Shown one piece after another: positions 25,993 to 44,386 of a DNA stretch of 64,000 bases. The DNA comes from Cutaneotrichosporon cavernicola. Taxonomy: Eukaryota; Basidiomycota; Tremellomycetes; Trichosporonales; Trichosporonaceae. Each line of letters begins with the position of its first letter. The stretch's first letter is position 1. Below the pieces are notes generated by a model. The model saw nothing but the letters and a program-made list of their open reading frames with translations, did no database searches and had not been told where the DNA came from. The stretch is from positions 1,550,001-1,614,000 of the forward strand of contig NC_083397.1 in assembly GCF_030864355.1 (NCBI RefSeq), given 5' to 3'. Position numbers and translations under genes: made by a program.

Positions 25993-28526
25993 CTAGGCGT
26001 CGTCTACAAAGCGAAGGCGCGTGTCGTTGGCCTCGCGCACAAGCACGCCCATGTTTTCGTACTCGGCGATTGTGTCCATAAGCTGGTTTTCGGTGAAACC
26101 CTTGGCGATGACGCGCGAGCGTACGTCGACCATCGTGAGCTCCTGCAGCGTCTCCTCCTCGGACTCGAAGTCGTCGTCGTCGTCGTCGGCCGCGCGCTGC
26201 GCCCGGCGTCGCGCAGCGGGCCCACGCCCGCTCGCCATGTCCTTGATGATGCGGAAAATCTTGGACGTGTCGGTCCGGTCGATGCCGAGCTCCCCGCGGT
26301 CCTCGATCAGGCTCTGCTTGGACGCGTCCATGAGGCGCAGCGCCTCGTCGACGTCCTCCTGGCGCACAGTCGAATCCCAACGAAGACGTGCCAGTGCCTG
26401 GGACAGACGAAGGACACCAAGCAAGGTACGCGCTGAGACGTACGTAAACGACTTGTCCTCGGCTTCGGCCTCCTTCTGCTCCATGCGCATCGTCACGTAC
26501 GACGACACAATGTACTCGCTCATCTCCTTCGGGACGACTGGGCGGTACGTGCGGCACTTGGCAATGTAGTGACGCATGAGTGTTGGCTCGACGACCTCAA
26601 AGTCAAGCTCAGGCGCCTCGTTGTGCATGTGCACATATGTGACGTGCTGGGCGAGAAGTTCATCATTCTCGCGTGACGGCGTGTCGAGGATGAGGAAGAG
26701 GATGTCGAAACGCGACAGGAGGGCGGCCGGCAGGTTGATGTTCTCCACCGGCGAAACCTTGGGGTTGTAACGACCGTACAGAGGGTTGGCAGCCGCGAGG
26801 ATCGAGGTACGTGCGTTGAGTGTCGTCGAGATACCTGCCTTGGAGATCGAGATGGTCTGCTGCTCCATGACCTCGTGGATGGCAGTGCGGTCCGACTCGT
26901 CCATCTTGTCAAACTCGTCGATGCAGCAGATGCCGTTGTCTGCGAGGACAAGCGCACCGCCCTCAAGCACCATCTCGTCCGTAACAGGGTCGCGCATAAC
27001 GGCCGCAGTGAGACCGACGCCGGACGAACCACGACCGGTCGTGTACACACCACGAGGGGCAATCTTTGTGATGTACTTGAGCAGCTGCGACTTGGCCACA
27101 CCCGGGTCACCCATGAGACAGACGTTGAGGTCGCCGCGGATCTTCATACCGTCGCCGACGTTCTTGGTGACACCTCCGATGAGGAGCAAGAGAAGAGCCT
27201 TCTTGACGTCCTCGTGGCCGAAAATTTCAGGAGCGATCGACCGGGCCATGCGAGAGTAGAGGCCAGGGTCGACACTGAGCTCCTCGACAGCTGCCTCCAG
27301 CTCTGGTGTAATGCGCATGTCCTCGTACTGCTTCTTGAGCTGGTGGACGTGCATGGCCTCAAGGAAGGTGTCCTGCAGCAGCCCAGCACGCATAGCACGG
27401 AAGCCCGTGTACGGAGTCGGAAGGAAAATGCCCGAGATATTGACGACGTCGCCCGGGTTGATCTTGCGCGTGAGCGCACCGTAAAGATGCACGGTCATCG
27501 AGCGGGGGATGTGGCCGACTGGGACCTGGTCGGCCATTTCCTGGATCTTGACCTCCTGGAACGCCTGGAAGCGTGATGCGCGAGTCTGCATGTGCAGGTT
27601 GCCGTTGGTCTGGTTCGTCTGACAGGTCTGCGAAGGGCAGGCAAAGAGAGGTGTGAATGACTTGGAGTCGACCTCCTGGAAGATTTCGTCACCGCACGAA
27701 TCACAAGTGTACGCATTGACGAGGAGAAGAGGCTTGACCTCGGACACGCGGGTGACGATACCGCGAACAGTGATGAGGTGACCGAGATGCTGCGCGCGCA
27801 CTGCTCGGACAGCGAGAGTATCGGCGCCGCGTGGTGGGCGGAAAAAGACGTTGTAGCGACGCATCAACTCGGGTGGGAACTGCGATCGGTCGAGCTCGCT
27901 TTCGTCCTCGTTTCCCGTATTGTGTTCCCGGCGCCACGCCATGACCATGTCGAGGACGTCATCGGACGTGTCCAGTTCATGGTCAGGTTCGGGAAGGAGT
28001 TTGTCGAGGACGTCAGCGAAGAGCTGGATGTAGCGGCGTGTGTTTCCCAGAACGTTGTAAAGGAGGGAGTGGTCGGTTGAGAACTGCTGTTAGCGGGGGT
28101 AGCGCAAAACAATCTCACGTTTTGGAGGTCTTTGAGGTCGATGATGACCTCAGTGGTCTGGCGGTTGGCGACCTTGCGCATAATGCGCATATACTTGGGG
28201 CTTTGGCGCTCATCCATGTGCAGTTCATCCATGTAGTCCAGTTCGTCATCAGTCTCGTCCTCGGCAGCAGCATCGTCATTGCTGGGAATGACCCCGCCGT
28301 TAGCTGGCCGCCTCTGGGCGACAAACTTGGTAAGGAAGTCCGAGATCTTCTCTGCGTGTTAGCTGAAATCATAGGCGATGATCTCTATGTAGTTGTAAAC
28401 GCACGGATCTCCTCATCGTAGTTAATCTGAAGTGTGAGTGATGGATGCAATCGGGGAAGACGCGTCAGGTGGACGACATACCTCAATGGCCGCAACGGGG
28501 AGCACGCCCACGTCCTGGGTTGCCAT
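25993..28526 (-). CDS. MCM7: Replicative helicase subunit Mcm7
   Basis: Four exons: 28526-28482, 28426-28405, 28351-28119 and 28083-25993; 796 aa. The N-terminal OB region carries the zinc finger (CDSC near residue 227 and CPSQTC). The AAA+ core has Walker [10 protein letters not shown] near 425-433, Walker B CIDEFDKM and the arginine finger SRFD. A C-terminal winged-helix region is preceded by an acidic linker. Role: subunit of the MCM2-7 helicase that unwinds DNA in the CMG complex. The acceptor of the last intron is CAGCAG, allowing one-residue variation. An ACGCGT hexamer (MluI cell-cycle box type) lies inside intron 1 near 28462. Confidence 0.96.
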
Positions 28527-37708: not shown

Positions 37709-38215
37709 CTACTTCTGAGTCTGACGGTCAGCTTCATCCACACACTATCGCCCTACTGCCCACCTATCGCCCACTCACAATGAACACCTGGTAGAACTTG
37801 ATCTTGGGCTCCGGTGCGCCGCCGTCGGTAAGCAGGCGCGCGGACCACTCGATGCCCTCCTTGCGCGTCCCGTCCTTCATGTCGTACGCGACGGTACCGT
37901 ACATCATGACCTCGTTGGGGTTCTTGCCCGCAAACACGCCCTGGCAGATATGGGTGCGCCCCGCAACAGCCTCCCATCCCTTCTGGCGCCAGCCCAGGAT
38001 ACCTGTTTGTCAGTCGTTTCGTATTATTGAATCTCACCTTCGTGGCCGTTGAACGTCGCGGGGCCCATGACGAGCGTCGCGTCCGGCGCATACAGGTCCA
38101 CATAGTGCTGGTGGCCGACGGGTCCGACGTCGCTCGCCGCATACAGGCGGTGAACGAGGGACTGGATCTTGGGCGAGATCGAGTCGTTGATGTTGGAGAC
38201 GTTGGGGTTGGGCAT
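37709..38215 (-). CDS. SnoaL/NTF2-like small protein
   Basis: Three exons: 38215-38038, 38002-37779 and 37720-37709; 137 aa. The pattern (an N-terminal helix ending RLYAASD, then HYVDLYAPDATLVMGP, FNGHEGI, and a closing strand KIKFYQVFI) is that of the NTF2-like cone fold with a hydrophobic pocket. The last exon is twelve bases, reached through an intron ending GCTGACCGTCAG; without it the frame ends four codons later in the intron. Family members act as cyclases, isomerases, dehydratases or binding proteins, so the substrate cannot be assigned. It lies just downstream of the aromatic-ring fusion gene on the same strand, which makes a metabolic role plausible. Confidence 0.75.
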
Positions 38216-38686: not shown

Positions 38687-40765
38687 CTACAACCAAACAG
38701 TGGTGGCGCACATGACGAGCTCCTGCTCGGTGCTCAGCTTGAGTTCGTCGACGACCTCGAAGCCCTTGTCGCTCGTGTATGCGAGCATCTGGACGAAGCC
38801 CTCCTCCGAGTCAGTGAGGGTCATGAACACCTCTCCCTTAGGTCCGAGGTTGGGGCAGACGGCGATGGCGTTGGCCCACCCGCCCGACGTCCTGGTCTGG
38901 AAGCGGTGCGTGGCCTCAGTGCTCGCAAACGTGCCGTCTGGTCGAAGGTTCCAAGCAGTGACATAGCCCAGGGTGGCCTTCTCGAGGCCGCGGGTTGAGC
39001 CAAACACCACATCAGCCATTGGCGAAAGGCGAACCTCGTCGGCCCAGAACTTGTCATGGTCCTTCTCGTCGGGGATGATGCAGCCGCCCTCGATGAACTC
39101 GAGCTTGGAGTCGTCCGTGAGGCGGAACGCGTCGACGTACGACGAGTGCTCCTGAAGCGAGTAGACGATACGGCCGTTGGGGTGGGGCCACGCGTGGCGC
39201 GGGCCGTCGTGAGGACGCGTCGCAATGTTCTTGGACGCCTCAGTGAGGAGGCCCGTCTCCCGATCAACGTGGTACATCCATACGCAGTTGCGCCCAATGT
39301 CAGCGACATAAAGCTTGGTGCCGTCTGGCGAGAGGTCGGCCGAGTGCCCTCCGTGCCGCAAGCCGCCAAAGTCCATCGTGCCGTTGGCCTTGTTCTTCTC
39401 CTGGCCGTTGAGGAGGTTGAAGTTCTGCACGGCTGGCTGATCGAGGAGCGTACCGTTGTCGTCCACGAGGAACGTGTCCACCTGCGGCCCGCACGCCGAA
39501 TACATCGCCTTGTTGTTGCTGCACACGTACCCCGACATGAACTTTGAGGGGACGTTGCGCGAGATCTTGGTCGTCGCGTACTCGCCACCGTGCACAATGT
39601 CGTAGCTCGTCAACTTAGGTGGCTCTCCCCACACCGTGGCGTACAGCGTCTTGCCGTCGGGGCTGACGTCCAGCCAGTTGTGCCCACCGGACGCCTCGTT
39701 AACCGTGCGAAGGTTGAGCTTGCGGGCCAGCACATCAAACGTGATCGTGTAGAGGTACGGCGAACGGAAAGTGCCCATGAGGATGTCGTACGACGTCGGC
39801 GCGACTGCCATGGCGATGCAACGGCCAACCTTGGCTGGCGCCTCGACTGCGCCCCAGTGTCCGACGTTCTCGAGGACCACCACGCTACCCTTGCCGTTGG
39901 GAATCTCGGCTGCCCACTGGCGCACCGCGTCTGGGCTGCCGAGGTAGTCCTCAGCGCCGCCAATAATGTGGACCGGGATAGGGGTCTTGGAGCCGTCGAC
40001 CGACGGGGCCTTGGAAAGAGCGAGGCAGGCCGCGGCGTAGGCCTCCGGCTTGGTGGTCGCCACAAGGTCGCGGATAAAGGCGCACGTAGCAAAGTCAGAG
40101 GCAGCAACGACCTTGGCAACAGCAGTCGAGGCGACCGCGTTCGCAATGCCGCTGAGACCCTTGGCCGTGCTGGCCGCCTTGGCACGTCCCTTCATGTTCT
40201 CCTTCACCGCGGGCGGGAGATTACGCACGGGGTGGAGGAGGATGAGCTGCTCGACGCGGTCGGAGTTCTTCTCGGTGAAGAGCGAAGTGATGGTCTGCCG
40301 TTAGTCGCTGTCCAAGAGCCAGTCATGGTGGCTTCTGAAGGTGCAAGCTGGGAACGAGGCGTATCGCGCTGGGTAGGTACCGTGGCGTTGAGCACAGCTC
40401 CCTCTTCTCCACTCTCTTCTCTCTGACTCTCAGAGACAACTCACTCCATTCATCGAGTGACCAGCGAGAATGACGCGGCTGAGGTTGAGTTTATCGAGGA
40501 CGTCCCCGATGTCGTCGATGTAGTTCTGGATGTCGGGCTCACGACCAGAGTAGTCGCTCTGACCATGGCCATCCATGTCGTACGCGTACACGTCGCGGTC
40601 CTTGGTGAGGCCCGAGCACTCCAATGCAGGAAGCCAGAACGCCGACGAGCCGCCGAGGCCGTGGATGGCAACGACGGGCGCCTTGGTCGACGGCGTGGCC
40701 GGCGCCGAGTGAGCGTAGTAGATCTTGCGCCCAGAGCCGAGAGTGAGGTAGTCGGACACGAACAT
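38687..40765 (-). CDS. Fusion: alpha/beta-hydrolase (enol-lactone/carboxymuconolactone hydrolase-like) + carboxy-cis,cis-muconate cyclase
   Basis: Two exons: 40765-40445 and 40294-38687, 642 aa, one uninterrupted frame. Residues 1-~265 are an alpha/beta-hydrolase of the PcaD type: HGLGG oxyanion motif, nucleophile Ser104 in GHSMNG, acid Asp223 and His253 in NVGHWGAVEAP. After a ~15-residue linker, residues ~280-642 are a beta-propeller of the fungal 3-carboxymuconate lactonizing enzyme family (MGTFRSPYLYTITFD, SGGHNWLDVSPDGKTLYATV, GLRHGGHSADLSPDGTKLYV), of near full family length. Known chemistry: the cyclase makes 3-carboxymuconolactone and a hydrolase then yields 3-oxoadipate. Both steps on one chain would channel an unstable lactone (inference). 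No stop, start signal or intron separates the halves. Confidence 0.88.
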
Positions 40766-41228: not shown

Positions 41229-42656
41229 TTAGTGGGCCTTGCCGTTGACCTCGGTGCGCGGCCGCAGCACGTTACCGCTGGCAATCTCGGGGTTGCGGTA
41301 CACCTCCTTGCCCATGACCCAAGTGGAGCGGAGGGAACCGTCCCAGCCGAACACGACGAGATCGGCATCAAAGCCGACATTGAGTTGGCCCTTTGTTTGC
41401 GCGACCCGCCCACCGAGCATCTGCGCCGGGTGATATGTCGCGCAGACAAGCGCCTGTGGGATAGTGATGCCGGCCCACTGGGAGAGGTTGCCGATACACT
41501 GGTAGAACGGGATGGCAGAGCCAGCGAGCGTGTCTGTCCCTTCCAGCACGACGCGCAGGCCCTCCTTGTGGAAGCTGAAGCCGCCGCGCCAGTGGTGCAG
41601 ACCGTCGGGGAGGGTGGGGTCGAGGATCCACTGCGCATCGGTGACGAGGATGCAGCGATCGGGAGCAGCGCCGTACGCAATCCGCACAGTGTTTGGGTGG
41701 AGGTGAAGCCCATCTGCAATGATGCCATAGTATGGCCGCGCGTCAGTCTCGCCGAGTAGACCCACGAGACCGGGGTCGCGGTGGTGGATGGGAGGCATAG
41801 CGTTGAACAAGTGGGTGATCATGTTGGCGCCGCGCGCCACAGCCTGCTGTCCCTGCTTGAGGTTGGCGTCCGAGTGGCCGATGCTAAAGATGACGCCGCG
41901 CTTCGTGAGCGGCTCGATGCAGTCCATAACGCCCTCAACGTCGGGCGCCGCCGTGATCATCTTGACACCCTCCTGGTCGAGGCCGTCCTTGCCGTATACG
42001 GCGTCAAACGCATCGATGGGAGGAGTGGTGTTGGCAGTCAAGAGGAGCTCGGTGGTGTGCATCCCCTTGCGGTCCGGGTGGAGGAACGGGCCCTCGGCGT
42101 GGTAGCCAAGGATGTGAGCCGAGTTCTTGCTCGAGCGGGGCGCAAGCAGGCGGAGGAGCTGGTGTGAGCATGTTTCAGTGTAGCTGGGAGAGAAGGCGAA
42201 TCTGAGCTGGGAGTGACGAGGAACGCCACCGCACCCATTATTGATAACTCGGCCTCCACCACCGCATCCACCTCCTTCCCTTTGTCGACTCACCTTGGCA
42301 TACAGCTCCTCCTTCTGGGTAATAATGGTCGGCACAAGAGACGTCGTGCCCGTCTCAACGATACGCTCCGCGACGTGGTCCAGGCCAGCGAGGTACTTGT
42401 CGTTGCCGCCAGGCCCGAGCTCGACGTCGGAGAAGTCGACACCATACGCGCCGTTGATCTGTACATCGATCAAGCCTGGAGAGAGGATGCCACCATCGAG
42501 GTCAACGACCCGCGATGGCCGCTGGCAAGTCGTGAAGAAGTTCTCCTGGCCTGCGATGATGAGGCCCGTCGTCGTGTCGACATACAGGTCGCCCTTGAGC
42601 GCCGTGCCGTCAGGCATGGCGATGAAGCCGTTGGTGAAGCGCACAATGTCAGTCAT
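41229..42656 (-). CDS. DAC1: N-acetylglucosamine-6-phosphate deacetylase
   Basis: Two exons: 42656-42294 and 42158-41229; 430 aa. This is an amidohydrolase-fold enzyme with SPGLIDVQINGAYG, the metal/substrate motif YHAEGPFLHPDRKG, GHSDAN, HLFNAMPPIHHRDPG and the catalytic Asp in ILVTDA. Reaction: GlcNAc-6-phosphate to glucosamine-6-phosphate plus acetate, in the cytosol, the second step of GlcNAc catabolism. It is divergently paired with the deaminase gene that performs the next step. The 135-nt intron is a multiple of three and has no stop, so a retained form would insert 45 residues into the protein. Confidence 0.95.
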   Translation of the reverse strand: MTDIVRFTNGFIAMPDGTALKGDLYVDTTTGLIIAGQENFFTTCQRPSRVVDLDGGILSPGLIDVQINGAYGVDFSDVELGPGGNDKYLAGLDHVAERIVETGTTSLVPTIITQKEELYAKVSRQREGGGCGGGGRVINNGCGGVPRHSQLRFAFSPSYTETCSHQLLRLLAPRSSKNSAHILGYHAEGPFLHPDRKGMHTTELLLTANTTPPIDAFDAVYGKDGLDQEGVKMITAAPDVEGVMDCIEPLTKRGVIFSIGHSDANLKQGQQAVARGANMITHLFNAMPPIHHRDPGLVGLLGETDARPYYGIIADGLHLHPNTVRIAYGAAPDRCILVTDAQWILDPTLPDGLHHWRGGFSFHKEGLRVVLEGTDTLAGSAIPFYQCIGNLSQWAGITIPQALVCATYHPAQMLGGRVAQTKGQLNVGFDADLVVFGWDGSLRSTWVMGKEVYRNPEIASGNVLRPRTEVNGKAH

Positions 42657-43254
42657 GGTGGTGTGAGGGGGATGACGAGCAAAGCCGTGTCAGCTGGCCT
42701 TTTTGTTTTGCATTGCACCAGAGAATCAAAGTTGGAACGTGCGGTGTGCGCGGTGACGTTGTGGGGCACCTGGGTGTTATCACTCGCCGAATGCGCCGAG
42801 CGCGCCGACGCGGGTCAAGTTCAACAACTTGGGGCGCGGCTCTAGCTACTTGGGACTGCGTCTCCGATCTCCCTGGCCTGGCTAGGCTGAATGAGTCATG
42901 AACCACGTCCACTGTAAGATGTGGGGTGGAGGATCTGGAACTTGCCATCAAGATGAGTCAAAACAAACTCGGCGTCTTTGCCGAAATGATATTATCGATT
43001 GTTTCGTGAGTCCCCAGTTGCCACAGCGGTTGAATAGAACGGCGAAAGCGCCGGAAATTGTATGGGCCACCAACCCCGCATTCATCCACATTGACAACCC
43101 TACAGCTGCAGCCCGTCCGACGCCGGCAGGCATGCCGACATGACCATCGCCGCTCTGGCCTCTACACTGGCGCACGTTGCTGCTCCGCACGCTTCTTTAA
43201 GAACTTTGGCAGGGGAGGTCTCAACTCCAACTCACCCCGATCCATCGAAACAAC
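42657..43254. promoter_or_regulatory. Shared promoter of the GlcNAc catabolic pair
   Basis: 598 bases between divergent deacetylase and deaminase starts, the arrangement found in fungal NAG clusters, where both genes are induced together by GlcNAc. No specific operator could be recognised by eye. Confidence 0.5.
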
Positions 43255-44386
43255 ATGCGTCTCACTATCCGCGACAACAAGGAGCAGGCCGGCGCCTACA
43301 TTGCCGACTACATCGCCAAGCGCATCAACGCGTTCGAGCCTAGGGAGGGTCACCCCAACTTTGTTCTCGGCCTCCCGACTGGCGGGACTCCCATGCCTGT
43401 GTACAGGCGCCTCGTCGAGCTGTACAACGATGGCAAGGTCTCGTTCAAGGATGTCATCACCTGTGAGTTTTGAGGTCAAGGTGGTTTGCTGACGGCAGTC
43501 AACATGGACGAGTACGTCGGCATCCCCCGCGACCACCCCGAGTCGTACCACACGTTCATGTTCAAGAACTTCTTCTCCCTGACTGACATCAAGTGAGTGT
43601 TGTTGTTGCTGTGAGACCTGGATGCGTGAATGCGCATGTTGCTTGGTGGCTTCGACCCAGTGGCTGGCCGGATGGAGCAGCTCCTCTCTAGAGGTGCGAG
43701 CTCGGGTGTACGGTGGCCTGACCTACCCCTGTTGCCGCTGGTATCGTCGTCGGCAGCTCATCAGTACTGAGCAACTTTGCTTTCGCCTTCCACGCCTGTC
43801 TTCCACATTTTCCCCTGGAGCTCCACTAACAAAAAGCCCTAAGAACACCAACATCCTCGACGGTAACGCCAAGGACCTGCACGGCGAGTGCGAGGCCTAC
43901 GAGGCCAAGATCAAGGCTGTCGGCGGCATCGACCTCTTCCTCGGCGGCATTGGTGTTGACGGGCACGTGGCGTTCAACGAGCCCGGCTCGTCGCTGAGCT
44001 CGCGCACTCGCATCAAGACGCTCGCTTACGACACAATTGTCGCCAACGCGCGCTTCTTCGACAACAACCTTGATCTCGTCCCCCGCATGTCCCTCACCGT
44101 CGGTGTGCAGACCGTCATGGACGCGTGTGAGGTCGTTCTCCTCGCGACCGGACAGAACAAGGCGCTCGCGATCTCGCAGATGATCGAGGGTGGCATCAAC
44201 CACATGGTTACCGCGTCTGCGCTCCAGATGCACCCCTGGGCACTGGTTGTGTGTGACGAGGACGCGACGGCTGAGCTCCGTGTCAAGACCGTCAAGTACT
44301 TTAAGAGTATCGAAAAGGTCCAGGACGAGGTGGATGCCAAGTACGGCGACTCTACACTCCGCCTGAACCACCCCACTCAGGTTTAG
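43255..44386 (+). CDS. NAG1: Glucosamine-6-phosphate deaminase (NagB type)
   Basis: Three exons: 43255-43462, 43499-43592 and 43837-44386; 283 aa. Motifs: [20 protein letters not shown] (phosphate loop), [40 protein letters not shown] and TRIKTL. Reaction: glucosamine-6-phosphate to fructose-6-phosphate plus ammonia. The second intron is 244 nt, long for this locus, and ends CTAACAAAAAG; this AG gives the in-frame [12 protein letters not shown] expected of the family, whereas the next AG would break the frame. Confidence 0.96.

Follow-up and report, generated by a model that had tools for sequence, protein, structure and literature searches.

A conserved fusion of an alpha/beta-hydrolase and a cyclase propeller in Cutaneotrichosporon and related yeasts, with a probable role in the catechol branch of the 3-oxoadipate pathway

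We have analysed a window of 64,000 nucleotides from Cutaneotrichosporon cavernicola (contig NC_083397.1, positions 1,550,001 to 1,614,000; coordinates below count from its first letter) and describe a gene on its minus strand that encodes an alpha/beta-hydrolase followed by a cyclase propeller. We provide evidence that this two-domain, single-chain fusion is real and conserved, supporting the union in one protein of two 3-oxoadipate-pathway enzymes, a cyclase that forms a lactone and a hydrolase of the lactone type. An initial annotation of the window had placed both domains in one gene, and spliced translation and Pfam matches (abhydrolase at residues 30-259, Lactonase propeller at 280-543) agree. 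The gene comprises the following features:

38687..40765, minus strand: fused gene, 642 aa, hydrolase and cyclase propeller (spliced translation; orthologue P0001 is equally long)
40445..40765, minus strand: exon 1, residues 1-107, with the ATG at 40765
40295..40444, minus strand: intron of 150 bp, GTGAGT...CTAAC...GGCAG, of GT-AG type
38687..40294, minus strand: exon 2, residues 108-642 and the stop (ending at 38687), holding the domain junction
39797..40756, minus strand: alpha/beta-hydrolase domain, residues 4-273 (the intron falls within this span)
40454..40456, minus strand: codon of the nucleophile Ser104 (codon positions, conservation alignment)
39947..39949, minus strand: codon of Asp223 (same basis)
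39857..39859, minus strand: codon of His253 (same basis)
38690..39796, minus strand: cyclase propeller, residues 274-642
38990..39346, minus strand: His424, Arg473, Glu489 and Arg542, matched by eye to His148, Arg196, Glu212 and Arg274 of 1jof

The gene had been described as one uninterrupted frame, which holds for the joining of the domains, as no stop codon separates them and their junction lies in one exon, but not for the hydrolase, which the intron splits just after its GHSMNG nucleophile elbow. The splice is backed by P0001 (98% identical, likewise 642 aa), and by eye several single-exon metagenomic orthologue calls start at or near the intron position. As the junction (residue 273, near 39797) sits inside exon 2, the fusion is untouched by the intron. 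In structural alignments of a predicted model of P0001, most hydrolase matches end at residues 272-274 and propeller matches start at 271-276. Because these nearly abut, the linker amounts to a few residues and not the 15 or so first proposed. This comparison (VIA-align) lists only Foldseek high-ranked chains, and a family missing from it is not thereby excluded.

When about 5.8 billion proteins were searched, 7995 candidates were scored and 331 matched, of which the best 120 were listed. The first 17 of these carry the hydrolase ahead of the propeller; 6 are full-length and 11 are metagenomic proteins truncated at the N-terminus. The full-length orthologues are P0001 of Cutaneotrichosporon sp. 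HIS471 (98% identity), P0002 of C. oleaginosum (formerly Trichosporon oleaginosus; 79%), P0006 and P0007 of Vanrija (59% and 58%), P0010 of Saitozyma podzolica (54%) and P0012 (53%). Joined proteins thus occur beyond the source genome, as a check suggested at the outset had sought, in Trichosporonales (Cutaneotrichosporon, Vanrija) and in Saitozyma (Tremellales). Rows P0018-P0120 align to 52-58% of the query, with the Pfam domain content of stand-alone cyclases; P0100 of Sporobolomyces salmonicolor (702 aa) has extra domains, PF20263 and PF05347, ahead of its cyclase and is perhaps a merged gene model. A further search added two more fused fragments (P0122, P0124), P0121 of Plicaturopsis crispa and five short metagenomic proteins with the hydrolase only (P0123, P0125-P0128); P0121 and these five may be relatives that lack the fusion, or else single exons.

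A detailed alignment took in P0001-P0018 and P0121, and junction length is equal in 16 of the 18 fused sequences, window included. P0015 has about 31 additional residues at the junction, with many Asn, Gly and Ala among them. A quick tree built by maximum likelihood from 122 rows (the window, 17 fused and 103 stand-alone proteins, and a 1jof fragment; SH-aLRT supports only) groups all 18 fused rows in a single clade (SH-aLRT 100), adjoined by P0018 of Plicaturopsis crispa (Agaricomycetes; support 83) and then by P0023 of Naganishia (Filobasidiales, a stand-alone model; support 100). Long-branch warnings attach to P0012 and P0023, and the 1jof fragment sits on an extreme branch that leaves the root uninformative. 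A single fusion event would be the simplest reading of this topology. In Plicaturopsis crispa the two halves appear as separate partial models (P0121, P0018) on scaffolds of equal size, and may be neighbouring genes or one split model.

The hydrolase half has an alpha/beta-hydrolase fold resembling PcaD (Pfam; predicted model of P0001), with the Ser104-Asp223-His253 triad reported earlier now confirmed by translation and codon positions. Ser104 is kept in P0121 and in all seven fused sequences whose N-terminus is complete; three N-truncated rows have other letters there, which we attribute to translation of the intron. All 18 fused sequences retain Asp223, and 17 of 18 retain His253, the exception being P0010, where some 30 residues just before the junction, including the histidine, are absent, probably through a gap in the gene model. 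The top three NCBIfam models on each of P0001, P0006 and P0010 represent enol-lactonase families (PcaD, PcaDC and PcaCD), and none reaches its cut-off; for TIGR02427 (PcaD) the scores are 103, 108.7 and 80 bits, respectively, against a curated threshold of 255.85 bits in a model set that NCBI applies to bacterial and archaeal genomes. The half also lies near several esterase families (NCBIfam, structural comparison), and other hydrolase matches in the C. cavernicola genome are weak only (23-27% identity).

The propeller is complete and shares the 1jof fold in structural alignment of the predicted model. It had been called a full-length fungal carboxymuconate cyclase; full-length it is, but remote from the Neurospora crassa 3-carboxymuconate cyclase (1jof), to which it is 22% identical over 334 residues. 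Four residues, matched by eye through an alignment of relative P0083 to 1jof, are kept in all 19 sequences covering the propeller (18 fused and P0018); we take their 1jof counterparts to be active-site residues. Among the best 120 of 331 matches, stand-alone fungal cyclases (P0019-P0120) are 40-46% identical to it. The proven 3-carboxymuconate cyclase of Aspergillus niger, CmcA, is given as 67% identical to the Neurospora enzyme in the available text of PMC10406623. Thus, at 22%, the propeller is not an orthologue of CmcA or of the Neurospora 3-carboxy-cis,cis-muconate lactonizing enzyme. The C. cavernicola genome has two PF10282 matches, the fused gene and L001, which is 6PGL-like by eye.

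We consider it probable that the fused protein is a muconate cycloisomerase and 3-oxoadipate enol-lactonase of the catechol branch. The fusion, its conservation, the predicted folds, the conserved putative active-site residues and the genome content are direct observations. We infer the substrates and the order of steps, as well as the isomerase and any benefit of one chain. The C-terminal propeller would cyclize cis,cis-muconate, derived from phenol by way of catechol, to muconolactone, which a separate protein would isomerize to 3-oxoadipate enol-lactone. The N-terminal Ser-Asp-His hydrolase would then open the enol-lactone to 3-oxoadipate, and a CoA-transferase would activate the product. 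Database names of the stand-alone cyclases are mixed and weaken this assignment somewhat: among the 103 rows P0018-P0120, 24 are called muconate cycloisomerase or MLE and 18 carboxy-cis,cis-muconate cyclase, with one row bearing both, although names are not tests.

The content of the genome (20.2 Mb, 8 contigs; gene-family counts are lower bounds) bears on which branch is served. At least four intradiol dioxygenases (PF00775) are encoded. L004 and L005 carry the catechol-dioxygenase N-terminal domain, and phenol-hydroxylase open reading frames (ORFs) lie about 4.7 kb and 1.1 kb from them, respectively (ORF coordinates). L003 has hydroxyquinol dioxygenases as best PDB matches and a CoA-transferase ORF about 1.1 kb away, and L006 is a weak match (36 bits), secreted by eye. 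For L003-L005, catechol or chlorocatechol models head the NCBIfam ranking and protocatechuate models follow lower down; for L006 a protocatechuate alpha-subunit model comes first, at 24.9 bits against a cut-off of 126. No clear protocatechuate 3,4-dioxygenase is present among these four PF00775 genes. Since PDB matches of L004 place hydroxyquinol above catechol dioxygenases, its role leans on the neighbouring phenol hydroxylase. The genome has two separate neighbourhoods of phenol hydroxylase and catechol-type dioxygenase, L024 (C8) and L025/L026 (C1), and two CMD-family matches. Trichosporon oleaginosus is reported, in the text available of PMC5693591, to use phenol, resorcinol and 4-hydroxybenzoate. 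Together, genome content, propeller divergence and the enol-lactonase models favour the catechol branch, without proving it.

The initial annotation had instead assigned the protein to the protocatechuate branch, where the propeller would convert 3-carboxymuconate to 3-carboxymuconolactone, to be hydrolysed and decarboxylated by the hydrolase half. The 1jof fold with its four matched residues and the naming of some stand-alone relatives are consistent with this, and the available text of PMC7842363 and PMC13094099 mentions a distinctive Basidiomycota protocatechuate dioxygenase that L004 or L005 might represent. We nonetheless regard this role as unlikely, and our data do not support it: the propeller is distant from the proven enzyme, both catechol-type dioxygenase genes lie close to phenol hydroxylases, and only L006 scores best, weakly, as protocatechuate type. 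Additionally, ChdA of A. niger, the experimentally assigned 3-carboxymuconolactone hydrolase/decarboxylase, is described in the accessible part of PMC10406623 as a 60.95-kDa protein with its abhydrolase domain in the C-terminal half. Hydrolase alignments of the fused protein begin within the first few residues of the chain, and we saw no counterpart of that extra N-terminal half in it, ChdA being known by description only.

If the fused protein serves the catechol branch, an isomerase would be expected between its two activities. In Aspergillus nidulans the muconolactone isomerase is a protein of its own, AN4061, according to available passages of PMC12388069 and PMC8283699; MIase (PF02426) and EthD find no match in the C. 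cavernicola genome. The next gene downstream of the fusion, separated from it by 471 bp and sharing its strand, offers a weak lead, in that it might supply this step:

37764..38215, minus strand: NTF2/SnoaL-like gene, 138 aa (exons 38215-38038 and 38002-37764; 35-bp intron)

The 138-aa protein has no Pfam match. It has seven database relatives, in a search that reaches only relatives sharing exact words, and two distant tandem paralogues on contig C2 of its own genome (29-33% identity). Models of the relative P0157, built from an alignment of seven, reach a best mean pLDDT of 91.5 (the other four 77, 77, 39 and 33), and we are only fairly sure of the predicted NTF2-like fold. PDB matches of P0157 are NTF2-like folds; they include ketosteroid isomerases, but also epoxide hydrolases, domains that bind carotenoids and designed proteins. 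Contigs of equal size suggest linkage to the fusion for two of the seven relatives (P0159 with P0005, 35519; P0163 with P0004, 14490), and the other five have no equal-sized fusion contig among the matches listed (for C. oleaginosum, 4127742 versus 4141495). Shared descent of closely related species might by itself account for such linkage. The two named relatives are both from Cutaneotrichosporon, and the lack of any named Vanrija or Saitozyma relative in this exact-word search disfavours a role as obligate partner. It is only a slim possibility that fusion and neighbour form a three-step module of cyclase, muconolactone isomerase of a new type (NTF2/ketosteroid-isomerase) and enol-lactonase, converting cis,cis-muconate to 3-oxoadipate and passing on unstable lactones in a complex. 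If true, the isomerase of these yeasts would be unrelated to the bacterial MIase family.

The lack of MIase and EthD matches could also mean that there is no isomerase step between the halves, such that the propeller is a muconate cyclase and the hydrolase, which lies near several esterase families, acts directly on muconolactone or another ester. We find this more doubtful still, as enol-lactonase models are nearest to the hydrolase half and, in the text available of PMC12388069, the catechol branch of A. nidulans employs two distinct proteins, AN4061 as muconolactone isomerase and AN4531 as enol-lactonase. The A. nidulans argument is tempered by the accessible text of PMC7842363, which calls some less expressed genes of the pathway non-essential for growth on salicylate. 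Finally, two genes run together by annotation or assembly would suit a gene read from genomic DNA and not from a transcript, a Met269 that could begin a separate cyclase and the separate models of Plicaturopsis, but we reject this highly improbable artefact, as the domains are joined in other genomes at 53-98% identity, no stop codon intervenes and the internal Met269 is unconserved (Q, W, R or T in more distant orthologues).

Elsewhere in the window, an amidohydrolase ORF (41232-42689, minus strand) is N-acetylglucosamine-6-phosphate deacetylase-like by eye, and an ORF beside it (43583-44383, plus strand) matches glucosamine-6-phosphate isomerases, perhaps forming an amino-sugar catabolism pair. 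An ORF at 25996-28089 (minus strand) encodes the MCM7 replication licensing factor.

The arrangement had been thought undescribed, which is wrong: available passages of a 2026 paper (PMC13094099, citing Martins et al. 2019) mention a Basidiomycota cyclase paralogue that is joined to a 3-oxoadipate-enol lactonase and would putatively act as a cis,cis-muconate cycloisomerase. This kind of fusion is thus already in print as a prediction. That multifunctional enzyme combines the same two proposed activities in one protein, in the same phylum, and is likely to be the protein described here, matched by description only. Our literature search, with most subscription journals outside its reach, found no report of an assay of the joined enzyme. 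Among known systems, the stand-alone fungal cyclases and the Neurospora enzyme lack a hydrolase, and the PcaD 3-oxoadipate enol-lactonase (2xua) is a stand-alone chain. Bacterial fusions (NCBIfam PcaDC and PcaCD; PcaL) likewise join the enol-lactonase to a nearby pathway enzyme, but that partner is 4-carboxymuconolactone decarboxylase, whereas here it is a propeller cyclase, a distinction that the initial annotation had rightly drawn.

The fusion provides a natural single chain that would pair lactone-making and lactone-opening enzymes, in yeasts akin to C. oleaginosum, an oleaginous species that uses phenol. It offers a testable case for the handing on of an unstable intermediate, and the gene may be a target in strains intended to accumulate muconate. 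Additionally, the fusion points toward the muconolactone isomerase of these yeasts.
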